Shown piece after piece: positions 24,359 through 36,536 of a stretch of 64,000 bases of DNA. Source of the stretch: Gammaproteobacteria bacterium (GTDB taxonomy: Bacteria > Pseudomonadota > Gammaproteobacteria > Nitrococcales > Nitrococcaceae); contig JAUILK010000003.1 of assembly GCA_030433275.1 (NCBI GenBank), positions 1 to 64,000 on the forward strand, read 5' to 3'. Within the stretch, counting starts at the first letter, position 1; the number at the start of each line of letters is the position of its first letter. The position numbers and the translations under genes were made by a program. A model generated the notes under the pieces. It saw only the letters and a program-made list of their open reading frames with translations. It was not told the DNA's origin and did no database searches.

Positions 24359-24551
24359 GCTGTCTTGTTAAAATGCTGCTTTTTATCATATAAATATATT
24401 ATAAATCTCACACAAAAGATCAGCTCGTGTACGATAGTGGCTTCGCCGACGAAGAATAGCCGCTTATCGCGCACCACTTTGAGCCCAAAGACAAACGCGC
24501 CGCGGCTGCGGTCCATTCCAAGCGCACTCTCGTTAACGCCATCCTCTACAT
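24359..24551 (+). pseudogene. IS5-family element, left part with start of transposase
   Basis: The left end GCTGTCTTGTTAAA resembles, inverted, the right end at about 34235-34248. The transposase begins at a GTG (24427) as VYDSGFADEE, then an amber codon at 24457-24459 replaces the expected tryptophan, then PLIAHHFEPKDKR to NAILY. The Tn3-family transposon cuts the next codon (AT|C). The rest of the gene is at 33597. Confidence 0.8.
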
Positions 24552-24605
24552 GGGGTCAACTCACGAAACGGAAAAAATCGTACGCTAAGTCTCGCGCGGT
24601 GTCCG
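24552..24605 (+). repeat. Left terminal inverted repeat of the Tn3-family transposon
   Basis: Fifty-four bases that match the reverse complement of 33538-33591 except at one position (T versus C at the 39th base). The first 38 bases are the usual Tn3-family inverted repeat. The further 16 matching bases extend beyond it. Confidence 0.93.
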
Positions 24606-24681
24606 CAGCCGCCGGAATTTGTGCCGCTCGACTCGTTTTCCCGCGCTACGGTCGGCAGCGCTGTCAGCGATCATGCTCGGA

Positions 24682-27102
<2,421 letters not shown>

Positions 27103-27156
27103 GGTGAGCCTCTCACTGCCAATCGAACCGATGCGGATTTCGCTGCGATAGCGTGT

Positions 27157-27411
27157 TCATGCGCGGTCACCGGCGGCGTCATCGGCACACCGCTGGCCTT
27201 GCTGCACGGGCGGGCACGGCTGACTCCCGTAGGAGCAGAAAACACAACAGTCCCCGGCTTTCGGGCGCAGCAATTCACCGCACCCGGCGCACTTGTAGAA
27301 GTACTGGCAGGTGTCGACGGGCATGGTCTCATGCTCGGCGTGTCCGCAGTACGGGCAGGTCAGCGTGGATTCGGCAACGATTGGTGTCACGGCGTAACTC
27401 CGTTGGTTCAT
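27157..27411 (-). CDS. GDCCVxC-domain cysteine-rich protein
   Basis: An 84-residue soluble protein with two CxxC pairs (LTCPYCGH, KCAGCGELL) and the family signature GDCCVFCSYGS followed by PCPPVQ. The ten cysteines suggest metal binding or redox chemistry. Members occur next to heavy-metal and mercury resistance genes. Here it sits between the CcdA-like gene and the ATPase, all on one strand with short gaps. Confidence 0.85.
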   Translation of the reverse strand: MNQRSYAVTPIVAESTLTCPYCGHAEHETMPVDTCQYFYKCAGCGELLRPKAGDCCVFCSYGSQPCPPVQQGQRCADDAAGDRA

Positions 27412-27426
27412 CGAAAAACAAACCGC

Positions 27427-28086
27427 CTACAATGTGATCGCCAGTCCGATGGACCACAGCCCTAGTGCGATCAGCACCACCCCGGTGACGCGCGGCATGC
27501 GCGACGACCAGCGGGCGATCACATCCAGCAGACGCCGCCCGGGGTTGGTGAACACCGCCAGCACGAGCGGCGAGGACAGCGCCAGGCCAAACACGGCGAG
27601 CGAGCCGGCGCCGTAGGCGATCCCGATCCCGCCGCCGGCAGCGGCCTGGGCGGCCGCGCCGCCGAGCAGTAGGGCCAGCAGCGGCGCAGCGCAGGCCGGG
27701 ATATTCAGGGCGAACACCGCGCCCAGCGTGGCGCCGGCGCCCTGGGTCGAGACCCGCGGCAGCAGGCGATCGCCCGCGCGGATCAGCCGTCCCGCACCGC
27801 CGCCGACGTAGACCGTGCCAAGCACGACGTAGAGGCCGCCCAGCGCCGCCCATAGACCGTGCTGGACACCCAGAAAACGGTTGCCTAGCCAGGCTGCGAG
27901 TACGCCCAGCGCGGCCATGAAGAGGGCGCGAACGCCGGCAAACACCATGGTCTGCCACCACCGTTCGCGCACCGGCAGGCGGTCCAATACTTTCAGAAAC
28001 AGCAGATGGCTGCCCACCGAGCACGGCTCCACGAATGCGAACAGTCCCAGACCCGCCGACAGCGCCAGCCATTGTGCGGTGTTCAT
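27427..28086 (-). CDS. CcdA/DsbD-like membrane protein
   Basis: A 219-residue protein with six predicted membrane helices. Two conserved cysteines lie in FVEPCSVGSHLLF (helix 1) and NIPACAAPLLALLLG (helix 4), the arrangement by which CcdA/DsbD carry reducing power across the inner membrane. In a metal operon it may keep the cysteines of the HMA or GDCCVxC proteins reduced, which is inference. It begins 3 bases after the HMA gene. Confidence 0.8.
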   Translation of the reverse strand: MNTAQWLALSAGLGLFAFVEPCSVGSHLLFLKVLDRLPVRERWWQTMVFAGVRALFMAALGVLAAWLGNRFLGVQHGLWAALGGLYVVLGTVYVGGGAGRLIRAGDRLLPRVSTQGAGATLGAVFALNIPACAAPLLALLLGGAAAQAAAGGGIGIAYGAGSLAVFGLALSSPLVLAVFTNPGRRLLDVIARWSSRMPRVTGVVLIALGLWSIGLAITL

Positions 28087-28089
28087 CGA

Positions 28090-28308
28090 CTACGCTGAAG
28101 TCGGCGTGGCCGTGTAACCGGCGTCTTGCACCGCCTGGACCAGCGCTTTGGCGGCGACTTGGTCGGCGTCGTGCGCAATCCGGGCCTGTTTCGACTCCAG
28201 CGATACGGTGACGCCTTTCACGCCCGCCTGCTGTTCCAGTACATGGGTCACGATCTGCACGCAGCCCTGGCAGTGCATGCCGTCGATGGTCAAGGTGGTG
28301 GTCTGCAT
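28090..28308 (-). CDS. Small HMA-domain metallochaperone
   Basis: A 72-residue single HMA domain with the metal site DGMHCQGCVQIV, like CopZ or MerP without a signal peptide. It should deliver metal to the ATPase of the same operon. I chose the ATG at 28308 because GAGGAG lies 7 bases upstream. It is the first gene after the inner MerR-type promoter. Confidence 0.88.
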   Translation of the reverse strand: MQTTTLTIDGMHCQGCVQIVTHVLEQQAGVKGVTVSLESKQARIAHDADQVAAKALVQAVQDAGYTATPTSA

Positions 28309-28369
28309 GAGACGCTCCTCAGATTTGGGGCCGGGCGTCGAACCCGGCGTTTCTACAAGTCTGAAGAGA

Positions 28370-28400
28370 AGCATAGAACCTGGAGTCAACTCCAGGTAAA
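28370..28400 (-). promoter_or_regulatory. MerR-type promoter/operator of the metal operon
   Basis: On the minus strand TTTACC (-35, 28395-28400) and TATGCT (-10, 28370-28375) are 19 bp apart, the long spacing typical of MerR-family promoters. The perfect 20-bp dyad ACCTGGAGT-TG-ACTCCAGGT (28378-28397) fills the spacer. It resembles the ZntR site of E. coli zntA. It precedes the HMA gene. Confidence 0.85.
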
Positions 28401-28429
28401 GTCATGATTTTTGACCGCGACGGCTCGTT

Positions 28430-28828
28430 CTAATCCGGCTGCCCGAGCCCTTCCAGAATTGGGCAACCTTGGTCGCTGCCCTGGCATAGCTCGTGCAGTT
28501 GGCGCAGCTCGCGCTGAAGTTGCTCCAGATCGGTCAGGCGCCGCTGAATCTCGTCCAGCTTGCGCGCAGTCAGCCGGGCGACCGCCGGCCGAGCCGCATC
28601 GCGACAGCTTCGAAATTCAAGCAGCTGGCGAATCTCGTCGAGCGAAAAATCACAGCGCTGGGCCCGCTGAATGAAGTGGAGCCGGGCCAAATCCGCCTGA
28701 TCGTAGCGGCGCCGCCCGCTGGAGTTGCGGGCAATCCGCGGCAGCAGGCCGATCTTTTCGTAGTAACGCAGTGTATCGACCGATAAGCCGGTCATTTTCG
28801 CGGTTTCGCCGATGGGCGTTCCGGACAT
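28430..28828 (-). CDS. MerR-family metal-responsive regulator (ZntR/CadR/PbrR-like)
   Basis: A 132-residue activator. The winged helix-turn-helix starts SGTPIGETAKMTGLSVDTLR, with LRYYEKIGLLP. A dimerisation helix follows. Cysteines at FRSCRDAA (about 77), LCQGSDQGCPI (about 115 and 122) match the C-x(n)-C-x(6-8)-C pattern of ZntR, CadR and PbrR rather than CueR. I chose the ATG at 28828; an upstream in-frame extension has no similarity. It likely controls four sites: one in front of itself, one before the HMA operon, and two driving plus-strand genes. Confidence 0.88.
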   Translation of the reverse strand: MSGTPIGETAKMTGLSVDTLRYYEKIGLLPRIARNSSGRRRYDQADLARLHFIQRAQRCDFSLDEIRQLLEFRSCRDAARPAVARLTARKLDEIQRRLTDLEQLQRELRQLHELCQGSDQGCPILEGLGQPD

Positions 28829-28941
28829 GGTGCTCCGTGTGTCGTGATGGCAGCGTGGTTTGATTACCCCTGCCTTGAAAGTCGCAATCAATCCCAGGTG
28901 TGGGGGTGCCAGGTTGGACTGTGGAATCAGCCTTCAAGATC

Positions 28942-28972
28942 AGTCTATATTCTAGAGTTGACTCCAGATCAA
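28942..28972 (-). promoter_or_regulatory. MerR-type promoter/operator before the regulator gene
   Basis: TTGATC (-35, 28967-28972) and TAGACT (-10, 28942-28947) on the minus strand, 19-bp spacer, with the near-perfect dyad TCTGGAGT-CA-ACTCTAGA inside. It lies about 115 bases before the merR start, so the regulator probably controls its own gene. Confidence 0.75.
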
Positions 28973-29012
28973 GCCTGCAATCTTACCGTTGGTGGCGCCG
29001 CTCCAAACCCGT

Positions 29013-29043
29013 TTGACATGGAGCTAACTCCAGATTGGAGCCT
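29013..29043 (+). promoter_or_regulatory. MerR-type operator before the oxidase gene
   Basis: A consensus TTGACA (29013-29018) is followed by the dyad TGGAG-CTAA-CTCCA (29019-29032) in the same place as in the other sites. The -10 at 19-bp spacing (GAGCCT) is poor, so promoter strength is doubtful. It faces the D-amino-acid-oxidase-like gene. Confidence 0.55.
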
Positions 29044-29079
29044 GTGTGTGCTTTTTGCAATAACCACTGGAGTCGAATC

Positions 29080-30458
29080 ATGGAACGCTTCAACAACGCA
29101 AACACACGGGTGCTGGTCATCGGCGCGGGGATGATCGGTTTAACGACTGCGCTTTGTCTACGCCGACGCGGTTTTCAGCCGATCGTCGTCGCGGACCGAT
29201 TCGCGCCGGGGATCACATCGAACGTGGCCGGTGCGTTATGGGAATGGCCACCGTCCGTCTGCGGGCGCCATCACGGCGAGGCGCTGCTCGAGCGTGCCAA
29301 GACATGGAGCATGACCTCGTACACGGCGTTTGAGCGTCTGGCGGCACGGCCGGCGACCGGCGTCACGATGCGCACCGCGGTTTTCTATTTCAAACGGCCG
29401 GTCGCCGATAACGCCCGTGAATGGGCCAAGCGCAATGAGCTTAAGCGGCGCGTCCGCGCGTTTCGGCATGACCCCCAATTGATCGCGGAATACGGCGTGA
29501 ACCCGGACAGTGGCGGGGTCGATGCGTACGAGATGCTCGCCCCGACCATCGATACGGACCGGTACATGGCGTGGCTCAAGCAGGAAGCGATCAGGGCAGG
29601 GTGCGAGCTCGTGCAGCAAAAGATCCGTGGCCCGAATGGCACTTAGTTAAGCCGTAAGCCACTGAAAATAAAGTGTAGGAACATAGACAAGGACATCGCA
29701 AACGCGTTGTCGAAACCGATCCAAGCCGGCAATTGGCGATTCGCTCCATTACAAGTCATTGAAATCGCTTCGTGTCGTCTTTTGGGCGCACCTTCGTAAT
29801 CTATTGATATAATAGAACTTATTAGCTTAACTAAGTGCCATTCATCCGTGGCCCGCTTGTCGCACAAGAACACGCGCTTCGTCGGCAATACAATGTCGAT
29901 GCGATCGTGAATTGCGCCGGCCTCGGGGGTGCCGAACTGGCCGCGGGCGGTCTGGCGTTGTTCGCGCTGCGCGTCAGCGGCGTGTTGATCCGCCTGCGCA
30001 ACGATGGCAAAAGCATGCCGCGGATCGAAAGGGCACATTGCGTTGCCAACGATGCATCGGAACAAGACCAGGATATGGTCTTCATCGTCCCCCAGGGAAC
30101 GGATACGCTGCTGCTCGGCGGCCTCTTGGAAGCCGATGAATGCGGCCTCGATATCGATCTAGACAACTATCCGCCCATCCAGCACATTCTGCAGCGCTGC
30201 ACCGCGTTCCTCCCCGCCTTATCCAGGGCGGTAGTCGACCCCGTCGAACTCGTGCGCGTGGGGTTGAGGCCGTTTCGTACACAAAATGCACGGGTCGAAC
30301 GCGAAGCGAACACCTCGATCATCCACAACTACGGCCACGGAGGCTCGGGCGTGACCCTGTCGTGGTGCTGTGGTTCGGAAGTCGCCGAGCGGGTCGAGTC
30401 ATTATTGGGTGTCGAAAGGATGAGTGCGGATTCCGGGCTTGCTGTTGATCCCCTGTAA
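29080..30458 (+). pseudogene. D-amino-acid-oxidase-like FAD oxidase, split by a MITE
   Basis: The N-terminal half (29080-29633) has the FAD-binding [19 protein letters not shown] and [10 protein letters not shown]. The second half (29855-30458) has VDAIVNCAGLGG, VLIRLRNDG and NYGHGGSGVTLSW, the signatures of D-amino-acid oxidases. A 210-bp MITE with 11-bp target duplication lies between. Removing it and one duplication restores a single frame of 385 residues. Residues around 29937-29987 ([17 protein letters not shown]) do not fit the family and are identical to a segment of the metal ATPase in this transposon, so the gene was damaged before the MITE came in. Confidence 0.8.
29634..29843. mobile_element. 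210-bp MITE with 19-bp inverted repeats
   Basis: The ends 29634-29652 and 29825-29843 are perfect 19-bp inverted repeats (GAATGGCACTTAGTTAAGC). They are flanked by an 11-bp direct repeat ATCCGTGGCCC (29623-29633 and 29844-29854), a target duplication of the length made by IS4-type elements. The inside is AT-rich and encodes no transposase. Confidence 0.9.
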
Positions 30459-30599
30459 AGCGTACAGGCATTACGCCGGCCTCGGCCGGTGTCATGCTTT
30501 AGACCCCGGTTTCCCGCTGACGCAGGACGCCGCTGGATTGGTTGTCACCAGCGCCTCGGCCCGCGCGATCGCGCAGTGACTAATTGGCGGCAAAAAGGC

Positions 30600-30630
30600 T
30601 TGATCTGGAGTCGAGTCCAGGTCGTAGTCT
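30600..30630 (+). promoter_or_regulatory. MerR-type promoter/operator before the secreted-protein gene
   Basis: TTGATC (30600-30605) and TAGTCT (30625-30630) with a 19-bp spacer holding the dyad CTGGAGT-CG-AGTCCAG (one mismatch). It points towards the secreted protein and DUF4396-like genes, which would place them in the same metal regulon. Confidence 0.75.
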
Positions 30631-30775
30631 TACGCCTACTCGATAAACCACTGATTAATGGACGACTGATGTGCACTGCCAGAGGAGCGATTCATGAGGG
30701 AAAACAGCGACGATGCGGGCCGGGTGCTGGCTATCATGGAAACGAACGGCGCAACCGACCCGAAAACGCGCCGAG

Positions 30776-31324
30776 ATGGATCATGAACGGAACACGATAA
30801 ATGCAGCCGTGGTCGCGGCTATCCTGACGATCCTGGGTGGGCTCATCGGGGTCCCCACTGCTATTGCCGGGCAGAATCAAGGCGAGCAGAACGGAACCAA
30901 ACAACAGACGCAGACGGACGCCACGCTGATACAACAGATCCGGAGTGCGGCGCCCGCGTCCATTGTCCGCCAGGCCACCGTGATCAGCCCACAGGGCAAG
31001 GTGCTCAAGAAAGGGGCAGGCGAATGGGTGTGCCGTCTCGCCGGTCCGAACAGCAAGGCCCCGGCCTGTCTCGACGCCCAGTTTCGAGCCTATCTCAAGG
31101 CCCGATCACAAGGGAAAACGCCGCACCTCAAGCGCGTCGGGGTCGCCTATATGCTGCACGGCATGACGACAGCGGGTATGCGGATGCCGCCGCACATCAT
31201 GTTGGTTGTGCCCAATCGGGCGGCGTTCAAAGGGTATCCGACCGAACCTCAAGGCGGTATGCCATGGGTCATGAAAGCGGGCACCCCCTATGCCCATCTG
31301 ATCCTACCGGTCGGTGGAATGTAA
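30776..31324 (+). CDS. Secreted protein of unknown function in the metal transposon
   Basis: A 182-residue protein with an N-terminal hydrophobic segment (about 10-32, AAVVAAILTILGGLIG) and a possible signal-peptidase site near AIAGQ. The mature part has two cysteines (WVCRLAG, PACLDAQ) and a C-terminal half rich in methionine, histidine and proline (YMLHGMTTAGMRMPPHIM, GGMPWVM). The residues suggest metal contact in the periplasm, but I cannot name the family. The MerR-type promoter at 30600-30630 lies upstream. A 30-codon frame at 30694-30786 overlaps its start and is probably not a gene. Confidence 0.65.
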   Translation: MDHERNTINAAVVAAILTILGGLIGVPTAIAGQNQGEQNGTKQQTQTDATLIQQIRSAAPASIVRQATVISPQGKVLKKGAGEWVCRLAGPNSKAPACLDAQFRAYLKARSQGKTPHLKRVGVAYMLHGMTTAGMRMPPHIMLVVPNRAAFKGYPTEPQGGMPWVMKAGTPYAHLILPVGGM

Positions 31325-31391
31325 GCGTAGTCGCTGAGACTAGTCGATTCCATGGTCTTTTTAAAAAACCGAACGTTAGAAGGAAGTTGTG

Positions 31392-32081
31392 ATGACGATA
31401 CCGCTGTGGCTGACGGGACTCGCCTGGGCTGTAACGGGCGTCGGACTGTTATGTGCGGGGACGATCCTCGCCGATATCTATCTGGGCGGTTACCGGCAAG
31501 CAATGCCGAGTTGGGAGGCGGTGTGGCCGATCACCGCGGTCTACGCCGGTCCGCTGGCGCTTGTCGCCTACTATCGATGGGGCCGTCCGGCCACGCCGAA
31601 GTGGCAGCAGCGACATGGCACGCCGCCGGCATTGGGTTGGAATGCCACGGCCGCCGTCGAAACCATTCCCGGGGGCGCGGCATCCTTCATCGGCCACCTC
31701 ATTGCCGTGCCGATCGTCGTGGCCACCGGTGTCACGATCGCCGGCCAAGGCGTGTGGCCCATGATCCTGCTCATTGCCGCATTTGCGCTGCCACTGCTGG
31801 TCGCTTTCGAATACCGCTCGTTGACCCGGGCGGGGCAGATCCGCTCGGCCGGCCAGCGGTTGCGCGTGGCCCTGAAGCTTTCCGTACTGGCGATCGTCGC
31901 CTTCGATACGGGCATGGGCGCCACAATGCTCATCGTGGCTTTTGTGTTGGGCTACCCACCCGTAACGATCGCGTTCTGGTTTGTCATGTGGGGCGGGCTT
32001 CTATTGGGCTTCATGACCGCCTTTCCGATGGTACGGCGGTTGCTGCGACAGGGCGCGACGGAGCCCGCCCCGGTCGGTTAG
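31392..32081 (+). CDS. DUF4396-like integral membrane protein
   Basis: A 229-residue protein with six predicted helices. The early segment VYAGPLALVAYYRWGR matches what I recall of DUF4396-family membrane proteins, which occur near metal genes. The cysteine-rich HC-x-C motif of many relatives is absent here and replaced by FIGHLIAVP. The ATG at 31392 has AGAAGGA upstream. It follows the secreted-protein gene by 67 bases and is probably co-transcribed. Confidence 0.55.
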   Translation: MTIPLWLTGLAWAVTGVGLLCAGTILADIYLGGYRQAMPSWEAVWPITAVYAGPLALVAYYRWGRPATPKWQQRHGTPPALGWNATAAVETIPGGAASFIGHLIAVPIVVATGVTIAGQGVWPMILLIAAFALPLLVAFEYRSLTRAGQIRSAGQRLRVALKLSVLAIVAFDTGMGATMLIVAFVLGYPPVTIAFWFVMWGGLLLGFMTAFPMVRRLLRQGATEPAPVG

Positions 32082-32163
32082 GCCGCCCCTCGTGCACGTA
32101 CGCCGACGCCAAGGCCATATTGGCGTGATCAGTATTCGAAACCAGACGATGAGGCATTGTGCG

Positions 32164-32862
32164 ATGTCCGACCCAGAGATTCCCGCTAGCCCACGCGGCA
32201 TGCTCGCGCTGCTGGCGTGGCTTGTGGGGCCGGTAGTGTTGGGCGCCGGCCGGTCATCCTCGGGTCGCTGATCGCGTTTATCGTACTCACCGCCGCGACG
32301 GCGTTCGTCAACACGGCAACGGCGTTTATCGGAATGCGGTTGCTCTCTGCCATCGGGGCCAGCGGCGTCGTGCCGATCTCGCCGGCGTTGATCGGCGACC
32401 GGGTGCCCTTCCGCCGGCGCGGCTACGCACTGGGCTGGTTGTTTGGCGGTATGGCCGGCGGCATCGCAGTCGGCGCCGCCGGCGGCGCGCTCGGCGAGCC
32501 CATCCTGGGCTGGAGCGGCCTGTTCCTCGTTGCCAGTGGCAGTGGGCTGCTTCTGCTTGCGATCGCGCTCGTCGCTCGGCTATTGCCGGCCACGCCCCGG
32601 CCGACGAACGTTCCGCCGCTACGTGCAGTCGCGACGGGCTACGTCAACCTGTTTAGCATCCCCCGAGGACGCCGCACCTACGGCTACGTGCTGATCAACG
32701 CCATGCTGCAATCCGGAATCTACACCTGGCTCGGCGTCTACCTCACGCAACGATTCGGCCTCGGCGACGCGGGCATCGGGCTCACCCTACTCGGCTACGG
32801 CATCCCCGGCCTGCTCCTCGGCCCGGTCATCAGGCGCCTCGCCGACCGCTACGGCCGGTTTC
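32164..32862 (+). pseudogene. Major facilitator transporter, doubly truncated
   Basis: The ATG at 32164 opens MSDPEIPASPRGMLALLA, which ends at a stop at 32269-32271. From about 32250 another frame continues as PVILGSLIAFIVLTAATAF, ALIGDRVPFRRRGYALGW and GLFLVASGSGLLLL, a typical MFS middle part. Helices one and two are deleted. The C-terminal half ends at RLADRYGRF, where the sequence joins the transposase fragment. The gene is broken at both ends. Confidence 0.75.
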
Positions 32863-33531
32863 ACCGACCATGTGTTTGCCTTGATGCAACTGTTGGGCTA
32901 TCGCTTCGCGCTGCGCATTCGCGATCTGGCTGACCGGCGGCTCTATATTCCCGGCAATGCCAAGTGTTATCCGACGCTCGGCGGCATGATCGGCGGGCGG
33001 ATCAACGTCAGGCACATTCGAACACATTGGGACGAAATCCTACGCCTGGCGACCTCGATCAAACAGGGCACGGTCACCGCCTCGTTGATGCTGCGCAAAC
33101 TCGGCAGCTACCCGCGCCAGAATGGGCTGGCGATCGCGCTTCGTGAGTTAGGCCGCTTCGAACGCACGCTATTCGCTCTCGACTGGATGCAAAACGTTGA
33201 GCTGCGCCGCCGGGTGCAGGTGGGCCTGAACAAGGGCGAGGCCAAGAACGCACTGGCACGTGCCGTGTTCTTGAACCGGCTGGGCGAACTCCGCGACCGC
33301 AGCTACGAGAACCAGCGCTACCGGGCGAGCGGCCTGAACCTCGTGATCAACGCCATCATTCTCTGGAACACGGTTTATATGGAGCGGGCGATTCAGGGGC
33401 TGGCCGATTCCGGGCAAATCATCGATGAGGCATTGCTGCCGCATCTTTCGCCGTTGGGCTGGGAGCACATCAACTTTACCGGCGACTCTATCTGGCAGCA
33501 GGATAAGCGAGTCGAGCGGGGCCGATTCTGA
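32857..33531 (+). pseudogene. tnpA: Tn3-family transposase, C-terminal fragment
   Basis: The last 225 or so residues of a roughly 1,000-residue Tn3 transposase: [28 protein letters not shown] and [20 protein letters not shown], whose glutamate is the third catalytic residue, and WNTVYMERA. The first two catalytic aspartates lie in the missing part. The fragment is fused to the MFS gene at about 32860, so a deletion inside the transposon removed most of tnpA. It reads toward the right end. Confidence 0.9.
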
Positions 33532-33537
33532 CCGTTA

Positions 33538-33591
33538 CGGACACCGCGCGAGGCTTAGCGTACGATTTTTTCCGTTTCGTGAGTTGACCCC
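33538..33591 (-). repeat. Right terminal inverted repeat of the Tn3-family transposon
   Basis: Reverse complement of 24552-24605 with one mismatch. It ends at GACCCC and is followed by the TACAT target duplicate. Confidence 0.93.
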
Positions 33592-33596
33592 TACAT

Positions 33597-34283: not shown

Positions 34284-36092
34284 TTAGTGTGATTCCACGT
34301 GATCCAGCAGGGTTATCGAAGGATTGGGCGGGGGCAGCGCGACGCCCAGTGTCGCAACAGCATCCGGTATCAGGATCACTTTGAGTATCGACTGCTTCCG
34401 GCTACCTGTTGCGCGGCACGTCCAGATGTTCTCGTCCTTCGGCGTCTTGCGGTGCAGCTTTAGCTTCTGGAAGCGCTTCTGCGCGTGACCCCAATTCGCG
34501 GCATCGAAATCGCGGAAAATCCGCGGCGAGACGAGGGCTAGCCCTTCGGGTAAGACGTGAATGCGGGCCTTGGCTGTATTGATCGGGACCGCCTCGTTCT
34601 CGATCGATTGTTTGAGCCAGGCTAGGAAACGCTCACCGGCGTCCTCGCTCGGATCCATTCCCGTGACCTGACCATCCCCCTGATGTAACGTCGGCTTTGG
34701 CTCATCGACCGGCGAGGGCGGAGCTGCTGCAGTATCCGCCGCATTGGGCGCGGCGGTTTCTTCGACTGTAACCGTATCTGTCTCCGCTTCGGGCTCCAGT
34801 TGCGTGCCAACGTTGAAGGGTAGTGGCAACCCGTCGATTGAATCGCGCTCGCTCGTGTTCACCGCTGTACCGAGTTCTGCGCTCGGCTCAGGCGCATCGG
34901 CGCTCTCTGGCGGCGTGTCGTTTGTCGACTCCGCATAGACCGGCTCAACCGAGCCGTCCATCGGTTCAGGCCGGCGGGACTGGTCCGACCACATTTGCTC
35001 CGCTTGGAACCGCAGGCATGTCAGCTGCTTCTGCCAATCGCCGATCGTGATCGAGCACAGCCATACGGCCCGATCACCGTTTGGTACGAGCAGCCCGTGC
35101 TGTTGCAGTTCATCCATGAGCCGGTCATTGCGCGTCGGGATTCCCGGCTGACCTTCTTCGATCAGATGGGTGCGCAGCCTATCCAGCGTGGTCTTGGACA
35201 CGAGCCACAACGTGTCGCCGTCCAAATACGCCGCCGCGCCGCGGCGATTGAGGGGGAGGGCGCCGTCATCCAGGAGATAGCGAAGCCCGGTGACCAGGCG
35301 TGGGGCAAGTGGCTTGGCCTTCGCTGTGGGCAGCTGGACGTTCGTGCGGCCGCTGAGATTCCGGGCGACCGACAAGCCATCCGCTTTACCGACGATTTCG
35401 CCGACCGCATCGGCATTCGATAGATCGCCCTGTATGGTGGCGAGCCAGTTGTGTAGCACCGCCTGGTCGCTGGCGATCCATTGCAGACCCTCGTCCGGAA
35501 TCAGGTGATGTGCGAGTAACGGCGAAATGCGCTCATGGCGCCGATAGACGCGGTTTGGATTGAACTCGATGCCGTAGCTCGCACCGACCGGCATTGGACC
35601 GTGCACGGGCGACCAGGACTGGTGACGTTCGCCCCGGGCGTCGTAAAGCGCGATGCGCTGGTCGGTGACCGGTTTGCCCAGATCGTGGAGCAGGGCGGCG
35701 GTGAAGCACGCATACGTCCATAGATCCTGCGCTCGGGATTGCACTTCGGGCGCTTCGCCGCGCGGAAGGATGATGCCCTGTTTCAGATCCAGCGTATAGC
35801 GCGCGACTTCGATGCCATGCTGTAGCAGCCCACCGGCGCCGGCGTGATGGTGTGATTCAGATGCCGGGAGGCGCTGCACGAGGGCGGCGTAATTCTCGAA
35901 CACCACCTGATACAGTGATCGCCAATGTTCCGGCGGTACGCCGACTCGTGCCCTGATGGCCGCGAGTTCGCCTTCGAACGGCGCTAGAAGTACCGAGGCG
36001 TTGAGAACCGTGAAACGGTTGCGAGCCGTGCTCTTCGACGCCGATGCACCCTCATCGGGGCGCATCCATTTTTTAAAGCGCGCTAAGATCAT
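34284..36092 (-). CDS. MobH-type relaxase (TraI_2 domain) of an integrative element
   Basis: A 602-residue conjugation protein that should nick oriT. The N-terminal TraI_2 domain carries the MobH histidine signature SESHHHAGAGGLLQHG (about 78-93) and an HD-type motif ALLHDLGKP (about 131). A proline- and acid-rich linker (about 390-500) leads to a C-terminal TraI_2_C/DNA-binding domain (GLALVSPRIFRDF). Such relaxases belong to integrative conjugative elements and genomic islands. I chose the ATG at 36092; an upstream in-frame stretch lacks similarity. No coupling protein or secretion genes are in the window, so only part of the element is here. Confidence 0.85.
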   Translation of the reverse strand: MILARFKKWMRPDEGASASKSTARNRFTVLNASVLLAPFEGELAAIRARVGVPPEHWRSLYQVVFENYAALVQRLPASESHHHAGAGGLLQHGIEVARYTLDLKQGIILPRGEAPEVQSRAQDLWTYACFTAALLHDLGKPVTDQRIALYDARGERHQSWSPVHGPMPVGASYGIEFNPNRVYRRHERISPLLAHHLIPDEGLQWIASDQAVLHNWLATIQGDLSNADAVGEIVGKADGLSVARNLSGRTNVQLPTAKAKPLAPRLVTGLRYLLDDGALPLNRRGAAAYLDGDTLWLVSKTTLDRLRTHLIEEGQPGIPTRNDRLMDELQQHGLLVPNGDRAVWLCSITIGDWQKQLTCLRFQAEQMWSDQSRRPEPMDGSVEPVYAESTNDTPPESADAPEPSAELGTAVNTSERDSIDGLPLPFNVGTQLEPEAETDTVTVEETAAPNAADTAAAPPSPVDEPKPTLHQGDGQVTGMDPSEDAGERFLAWLKQSIENEAVPINTAKARIHVLPEGLALVSPRIFRDFDAANWGHAQKRFQKLKLHRKTPKDENIWTCRATGSRKQSILKVILIPDAVATLGVALPPPNPSITLLDHVESH

Positions 36093-36536
36093 GACTACCG
36101 GATCCTGCCCGATGGATTTTGTGGCAGGCAAATAAACTCGGAGGTATACGCAAGAGCGGTGTATACGCTGGGATCTGTCCGTGCCGGGGCTGCTGCGCAC
36201 GATGCATGAGCGGTTCGAGGCGCTGGCGCAGCCGATACGCCGAGCCGCGCGCGGCGGCTTTAGTTATCCACAGCTTGTGTGGGCAACCCTGTGGATATCT
36301 TCGACGTTCGCTGCTACGACATGCCATTAGCGGATCGGTTAATTTCTGTCCACGCCGGCCGCGGCGTGTCGGTCATGGAGTGGTCGCACCCTTTCGCGGC
36401 AGCGCAGCCCTTTTTGCCCTTTCGGGCAAATCGAGCTCTCTGATCGCTTTCGGGTAAGCCCGTTACCATTATAAAACTATTCCATTCGGCCCTTTGCGCC
36501 GGCCCTTGAGCCCTTCACCGTGCAGCTTCCCTTAAC

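Follow-up and report, generated by a model that had tools for sequence, protein, structure and literature searches.

Four promoter sites on one transposon

Does one metal-sensing regulator switch on genes in both directions across this locus? The initial annotation had proposed as much, on the strength of four similar sites, in the 64-kb stretch of DNA analysed here (the window). The intervals were both read directly and scanned; the coordinates given for them earlier proved exact, and the TGGAG-x-CTCCA-like dyad described as common to them is present in all four. Each interval holds exactly one 31-bp promoter, composed of a -35 hexamer and a -10 hexamer with a 19-bp spacer between them that is taken up by an imperfect CTGGAGTYRACTCCAG dyad, so that the 19-bp spacer previously credited to three sites is in fact found at four of four. 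The directions had also been read correctly. On the minus strand, the candidate MerR-type promoter/operator S1 (28370-28400, TTTACC-TGGAGTTGACTCCAGGTTC-TATGCT) faces a metal operon and S2 (28942-28972, TTGATC-TGGAGTCAACTCTAGAATA-TAGACT) faces the regulator gene, a candidate for autoregulation; on the plus strand, the candidates S3 (29013-29043, TTGACA-TGGAGCTAACTCCAGATTG-GAGCCT) and S4 (30600-30630, TTGATC-TGGAGTCGAGTCCAGGTCG-TAGTCT) face an oxidase gene and a secreted-protein/DUF4396/MFS operon. Both boxes are good in S1, S2 and S4, while S3 has a recognisable -35 (TTGACA) and a weak -10 (GAGCCT). S2 can alternatively be read with a 17-bp spacer (TTGATC-17-TATAGA), which could provide basal expression of the regulator. 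A 17-nt block, AGGCTTGATCTGGAGTC, is identical in S2 and S4, so one of these may be a copy of the other rather than independently selected.

We consider it quite likely that S1-S4 are four promoters of one small regulon on a Tn3-family transposon, switched by one MerR-type activator. This reading is supported by the exact geometry at S1-S4, which is found nowhere else in the window and is near-unique in the genome, by the relatives of the regulator that adjoin the same promoter in about 30 loci, and by the location of all parts inside a single transposon with intact ends; it is weakened by S3, with its poor -10 and broken gene. Regulator binding, activation and the identity of the metal, unlike the sites, their geometry and non-random occurrence, the boundaries, the gene order and the retention of S1- and S4-type promoters in a second genome, are what we infer. 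MerR-family activators sit in an over-long spacer and untwist it when metal binds (PMC5045206, PMC1526738). By that model, a dimer of the MerR-type regulator (28828-28430) would bind the dyad filling the over-long 19-bp spacer and, when metal-free, would keep RNA polymerase unproductively bound; once metal is held between its loop cysteines, the regulator would untwist the spacer and bring the -35 and -10 into alignment. S1 would then drive the genes for a chaperone, a CcdA-like protein, a GDCCVxC protein and a P1B ATPase, for cytoplasmic capture and export, and S2 would drive the regulator gene, raising the level of the sensor. S4 would drive an envelope module of secreted protein, DUF4396 protein and a now truncated MFS gene, and S3 an oxidoreductase gene since broken by an insertion.

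The four sites and all their genes lie within a 9,040-bp Tn3-family transposon (24552-33591), recognised by its terminal inverted repeats, its target duplication and a piece of tnpA. Its ends are perfect 38-bp inverted repeats (24552-24589 and 33554-33591), and the 5-bp target duplication expected of the family, TACAT, flanks them at 24547-24551 and 33592-33596. A complete tnpA is lacking in the element, the remnant at 32872-33531 encoding the C-terminal 219 aa only (PF01526, E 1.2e-80). Judged by its sequence, the transposon is a defective Tn3-family member that could move, if it moves at all, only in trans. Nearby (34287-36200) lies the gene for a MobH relaxase of the PFGI-1 ICE class, and the transposon is therefore probably carried by a conjugative element. 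No close homologue of the ATPase is present in four genus mates.

Rarity and conservation of the promoter

A 31-column promoter profile was built from 29 training promoters, all taken from other genomes and none from the window. It scored S1, S2, S3 and S4 at 40.6, 38.8, 36.5 and 36.3 bits, the weakest training promoter scoring 37.4. Opposite-strand readings of the same dyads aside, the next independent site in the 64-kb window reached only -4.8 bits, and the best score among 300 windows simulated with a first-order Markov model was 20.5 bits. Because the training promoters were located via the dyad, the profile in part detects the dyad itself; both hexamers and the distance between them are nevertheless conserved, and none of these features had served to locate either the window sites or the dyads of the training set. 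For the whole genome (3,414,347 bp), the dyad pattern was used rather than the full profile: with at most one mismatch, TGGAGTNRASTCCAG occurs at S1-S4 and at one other place (C31:78137), where it overlaps a helicase gene at its start and lacks a promoter. This fifth dyad and the other genome matches examined scored at most -0.9 with the profile and added no further regulon sites. A generic TTGACT-N19-TATAAT pattern allowing 3 mismatches showed no enrichment (11 found vs 10 expected).

Relatives of the regulator were taken from 80 loci, and in about 30 loci, from Gamma- and Betaproteobacteria, TTGACC-TGGAGTYRACTCCAG-N4-TAnnCT lies beside the regulator gene or its operon. In Salinisphaera (L031-L034 and L036), the orthologous operon still has the S1-type promoter ahead of its chaperone gene. 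In Salinisphaera sp. GH4 (L030), TTGACC-TGGACTCGAATCCAGGGTC-TAGGCT (L030:1876) precedes genes for the secreted protein, DUF4396 (82%) and an MFS protein, arranged as they are here, and TTGACC-TTGAGTCGACTCCAGCTAA-TAGACT precedes the metal operon. This locus was excluded from training; its S4-type promoter scores 34.9 bits and its S1-type promoter 43.9 bits, the next site reaching -9.9. The promoter is kept in GH4 although the secreted proteins share only about 50% identity. With the promoter retained there before both the metal and the secreted-protein operons, the secreted-protein/DUF4396/MFS operon is very probably a member of the regulon. As for the proposal that a single regulator acts in both directions, the sites appear to be of its cognate promoter type, conserved in GH4 before the S1- and S4-type operons, and to that extent the proposal gains support. 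Both secreted-protein promoters deviate from the consensus at one symmetric dyad pair (columns 11/16), which, from these two cases, may reflect a shared lower affinity. GH4 also has, between its MFS and regulator genes, a gene for an ArsP_1-family permease (PF03773, L030:4781-5974), a possible further regulon member.

No such promoter was found upstream of distant relatives of the secreted protein, the oxidase or DUF4396, which suggests that these genes were recruited in this lineage and that the link is local. Neither the class sample nor Salinisphaera yielded a close relative of the oxidase that would have allowed S3 to be footprinted.

The genes behind the promoters

The minus-strand gene order is regulator, HMA chaperone, CcdA-like protein, GDCCVxC protein and P1B ATPase. 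The HMA/CopZ-like metallochaperone (28090-28308, minus strand, 72 aa) matches PF00403 with E 4.5e-16. The CcdA/DsbD-like membrane protein (27427-28086, minus strand, 219 aa) has a weak PF02683 match (E 0.007) and is 53% identical to the annotated CcdA of Marinobacter pSMR5. It is followed by the GDCCVxC-domain protein (27157-27411, minus strand, NF041374, E 1.6e-29) and the heavy-metal P1B ATPase (about 24682-27102, minus strand, TIGR01525, E 2.6e-166). In the ATPase sequence YPC replaces the CPC metal motif; the closest solved structures are Cu(I) ATPases, which have CPC. Full-text literature searches for "YPC motif" and "GDCCVxC" returned no match. The Marinobacter plasmid pSMR5 encodes a pump with 77% identity, preceded by genes for CcdA, cytochrome c and sulfite oxidase.

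On the plus strand, the gene that S3 faces is, as annotated initially, that of an oxidase, but it is now split by a 209-bp insertion into a 5' part (29080-29646, PF01266, E 7.5e-16) and a 3' part (29844-30458, PF01266, E 2e-18) of an FAD-dependent oxidoreductase of the DAO family. The insertion (29635-29843) is MITE-like, with 19-bp perfect inverted ends (arms 29634-29652 and 29825-29843) and a target duplication of about 11-12 bp, ATCCGTGGCCCG, and is present as a single copy in the genome. Behind S4, also on the plus strand, the first gene encodes a secreted protein of an unnamed family (30776-31324, the start being uncertain, 30713 or 30776) with WxC...C and PHxM/PYAHL motifs. It has no Pfam match and no solved relative; relatives in the family alignment are 27-54% identical, and AlphaFold run from two sequences gave a mean pLDDT of 49.9. 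The start of this gene is overlapped by a 30-codon frame (30694-30786), which has a good ribosome-binding site and is possibly a leader peptide with translational coupling.

The DUF4396 membrane protein follows (31392-32081, plus strand, PF14342, E 2.1e-21), and both its reading frame and that of the secreted protein are open and intact. The MFS transporter gene is a remnant cut at both ends (32217-32933, plus strand, PF07690 profile 59-270 of 347) that runs into tnpA near 32845-32851; the GH4 homologue is 406 aa long. With the oxidase gene split and the MFS gene truncated, induction of these two may be futile. Some of the genes had been described as having no known metal role, a statement that goes too far for DUF4396, encoded by the second gene behind S4, since it is found in metal islands of actinobacterial plasmids: Mycobacterium lentiflavum, Arthrobacter, Clavibacter and Rhodococcus have plasmids with relatives inside copper or other metal islands, and on the M. 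lentiflavum plasmid the relative is beside an oxidase relative and CopC. Those of Rubrobacter and Methylomagnum are not clearly in metal islands, and at the limits used no DUF4396 relative was found in the host's own genus, in 54 genomes of the order or in a 398-genome phylum sample. One paper links DUF4396 with copper, placing it at the edge of a metal cluster.

The regulator and its probable metal

The regulator (28430-28828, minus strand, 132 aa) has the features by which the MerR family is recognised: an N-terminal HTH and dimer-helix domain (PF13411, 5e-20; PF09278, 4e-17), a palindrome in a 19-20-bp spacer between -35 and -10 (at S1-S4) and at least two of the three metal-ligand cysteines, here a C-x6-C metal loop and one Cys in a non-canonical column. 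Its assignment within the family is less straightforward. Against the NCBIfam equivalog models it scores 88.0 bits for ZntR (cut-off 167.95), 89.3 bits for CadR-PbrR (cut-off 151.45) and 105.6 bits for CueR (cut-off 147.4), the last being the best model yet still below its threshold, and it also falls below the cut-off of the MerR model. The alignment used to compare residues included rows for E. coli CueR, E. coli ZntR and Tn501 MerR. In it, the recognition helix reads VDTLRYY, with Asp as in ZntR; missing from the effector domain are the Cys79/Cys82 column of ZntR/MerR and the C114/C115/C124 loop of ZntR, and its loop is a short CxxxxxxC one, nearer that of CueR. Salinisphaera-type members have an additional cysteine in another column (RSCRD; KGCRS in L030).

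In gammaproteobacterial members of this regulator group, a recognition-helix Asp correlates with G6/C13 of the operator (PMC5045206). The regulator's Asp and the G6/C13 of the operator agree with this protein-DNA correlation, the placement on the dyad assuming that two central bases are omitted, as in the symmetric numbering of that work. The published ZntR operator has the core CTGGAGTCGACTCCAG and a 20-bp spacer, and zntR genes are reported to have no preceding ZntR sites and not to be autoregulated (PMC1526738). Here, the spacer is 19 bp long and 7 bp separate the dyad centre from the -35, as against 20 and 8 for ZntR, so that neither the 22-bp palindrome in a 20-bp spacer nor, given S2, the absence of autoregulation typical of ZntR is found. 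The CueR-type ACCTTCC operator is likewise absent, the half-sites being CTGGAGT. The label ZntR/CadR-like, given to the regulator initially, thus holds on the DNA side (VDTLRYY helix, CTGGAG half-site) and fails both in geometry (7/19 vs 8/20) and on the effector side, with no Cys79/Cys82 column and a short loop. The 19-bp spacing, the short two-cysteine loop and the Cu-type pump point to a soft, thiophilic metal as effector, Cu(I)/Ag(I) being the likeliest candidates and Hg(II) a possible next one, with Zn/Cd/Pb less likely.

Several known systems come close to this one. ZntR-zntA of E. coli shares the dyad core, the recognition-helix Asp and the MerR-type spacer promoter, and differs in its 20-bp spacer with the dyad centre 8 bp from the -35 (here 19 and 7), in zntR not being autoregulated, and in having Cys79 and a longer loop. 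Several promoters under one MerR regulator are already known from CueR. The CueR regulon of E. coli and Salmonella (copA, cueO and others) resembles this locus in having one regulator with several separate 19-bp-spacer promoters, in its genes for an export pump, an envelope protein and an oxidase, and in its short Cys loop and Cu-type ATPase; in contrast, its operator is ACCTTCC-type with helix K rather than D, its genes are scattered on the chromosome rather than packed in one transposon, and its oxidase is a multicopper enzyme, the one here a flavoprotein. MerR and the mer operons of Tn21 and Tn501 provide a MerR-activated metal regulon on a Tn3-family transposon with a 19-bp spacer, whereas this element has no merA/merT, another dyad, no Cys82 column and four promoters instead of one divergent pair. 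An uncharacterised proteobacterial MerR subfamily (L039-L068), encoded beside thioredoxin/DsbD-like operons, has the same operator, spacing and regulator type (47-59% identity) but, unlike the regulator here, controls thioredoxin-like protein and DsbD-like permease genes.

Alternative explanations

Three other explanations bear on the four-promoter reading. Only S1 and S2 might work, S3 and S4 being promoter copies spread by recombination and no longer relevant, as could be argued from the block shared by S2 and S4, from the broken gene behind S3 and truncated MFS gene behind S4, and from recombination patches in both of these plus-strand genes (described below). However, S4 is conserved in GH4 as TTGACC-19-TAGGCT before the same three-gene operon, the secreted-protein and DUF4396 frames have stayed intact, and S3 and S4 score 36 bits, just below the weakest training promoter at 37.4; we therefore think this improbable. 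That other MerR paralogues of the genome act on S1-S4 in place of the local regulator is scarcely credible: two of them (C49 and C41) are 36-38% identical to it, but their recognition helices (VATETLRYYE and CSIQTIRHYE) have no Asp, no such promoter lies beside either gene, genus mates lack the island's ATPase, and relatives elsewhere pair this promoter with the local regulator's own subfamily.

The remaining explanation concerns the metal and is compatible with four working promoters. A true zinc/cadmium/lead system of ZntR or CadR type would account for a dyad core equal to the published ZntR consensus core (PMC1526738), for the ZntR-like D of the recognition helix and for the presence of CadR among the solved structures closest to the regulator. 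It seems unlikely, though, in view of all the ZntR/CadR equivalog models falling below cut-off, the missing Cys79-column ligand and short loop, a spacer of 19 rather than 20, the position of S2 before the regulator gene where zntR genes are reported to have no ZntR site (PMC1526738), and an ATPase closer to Cu than to Zn pumps.

A possible envelope layer of metal detoxification

Returning to one regulator acting at four promoters, we tentatively suggest, as something a little short of probable, that a distinct MerR subfamily, in which a ZntR-type operator goes together with a two-cysteine loop like that of CueR, acts from a mobile element to control an envelope system made up of the unnamed secreted Cys/Met/His-motif protein, DUF4396 and an MFS transporter. 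If true, the envelope system would be a second metal-detoxification layer beside cytoplasmic export, and the secreted protein would represent a new periplasmic metal-handling family. Phylogenetic footprinting ties an uncharacterised secreted family and DUF4396 to a metal sensor, and the placement of an entire multi-promoter regulon, beyond a single operon, between transposon ends offers a route by which such regulons could be passed on intact. The four promoters are ready and directly testable, and the mixed operator and loop features of the subfamily would allow a test of which residues set DNA versus metal specificity in MerR regulators.

Inverted pieces of the ATPase gene

A piece of the ATPase gene (26551-26614) is found inverted and in frame in the 3' half of the oxidase gene (29924-29987; 64 nt, 81% identical), where it occupies the place of a PxRG-like motif in relatives. 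From its sequence, this patch looks like a recombination or template-switch product. A second inverted ATPase-gene piece (25803-25852 vs 32202-32251; 50 nt, 86%) lies just before the start of the truncated MFS gene, and two patches from a single donor gene are unusual.
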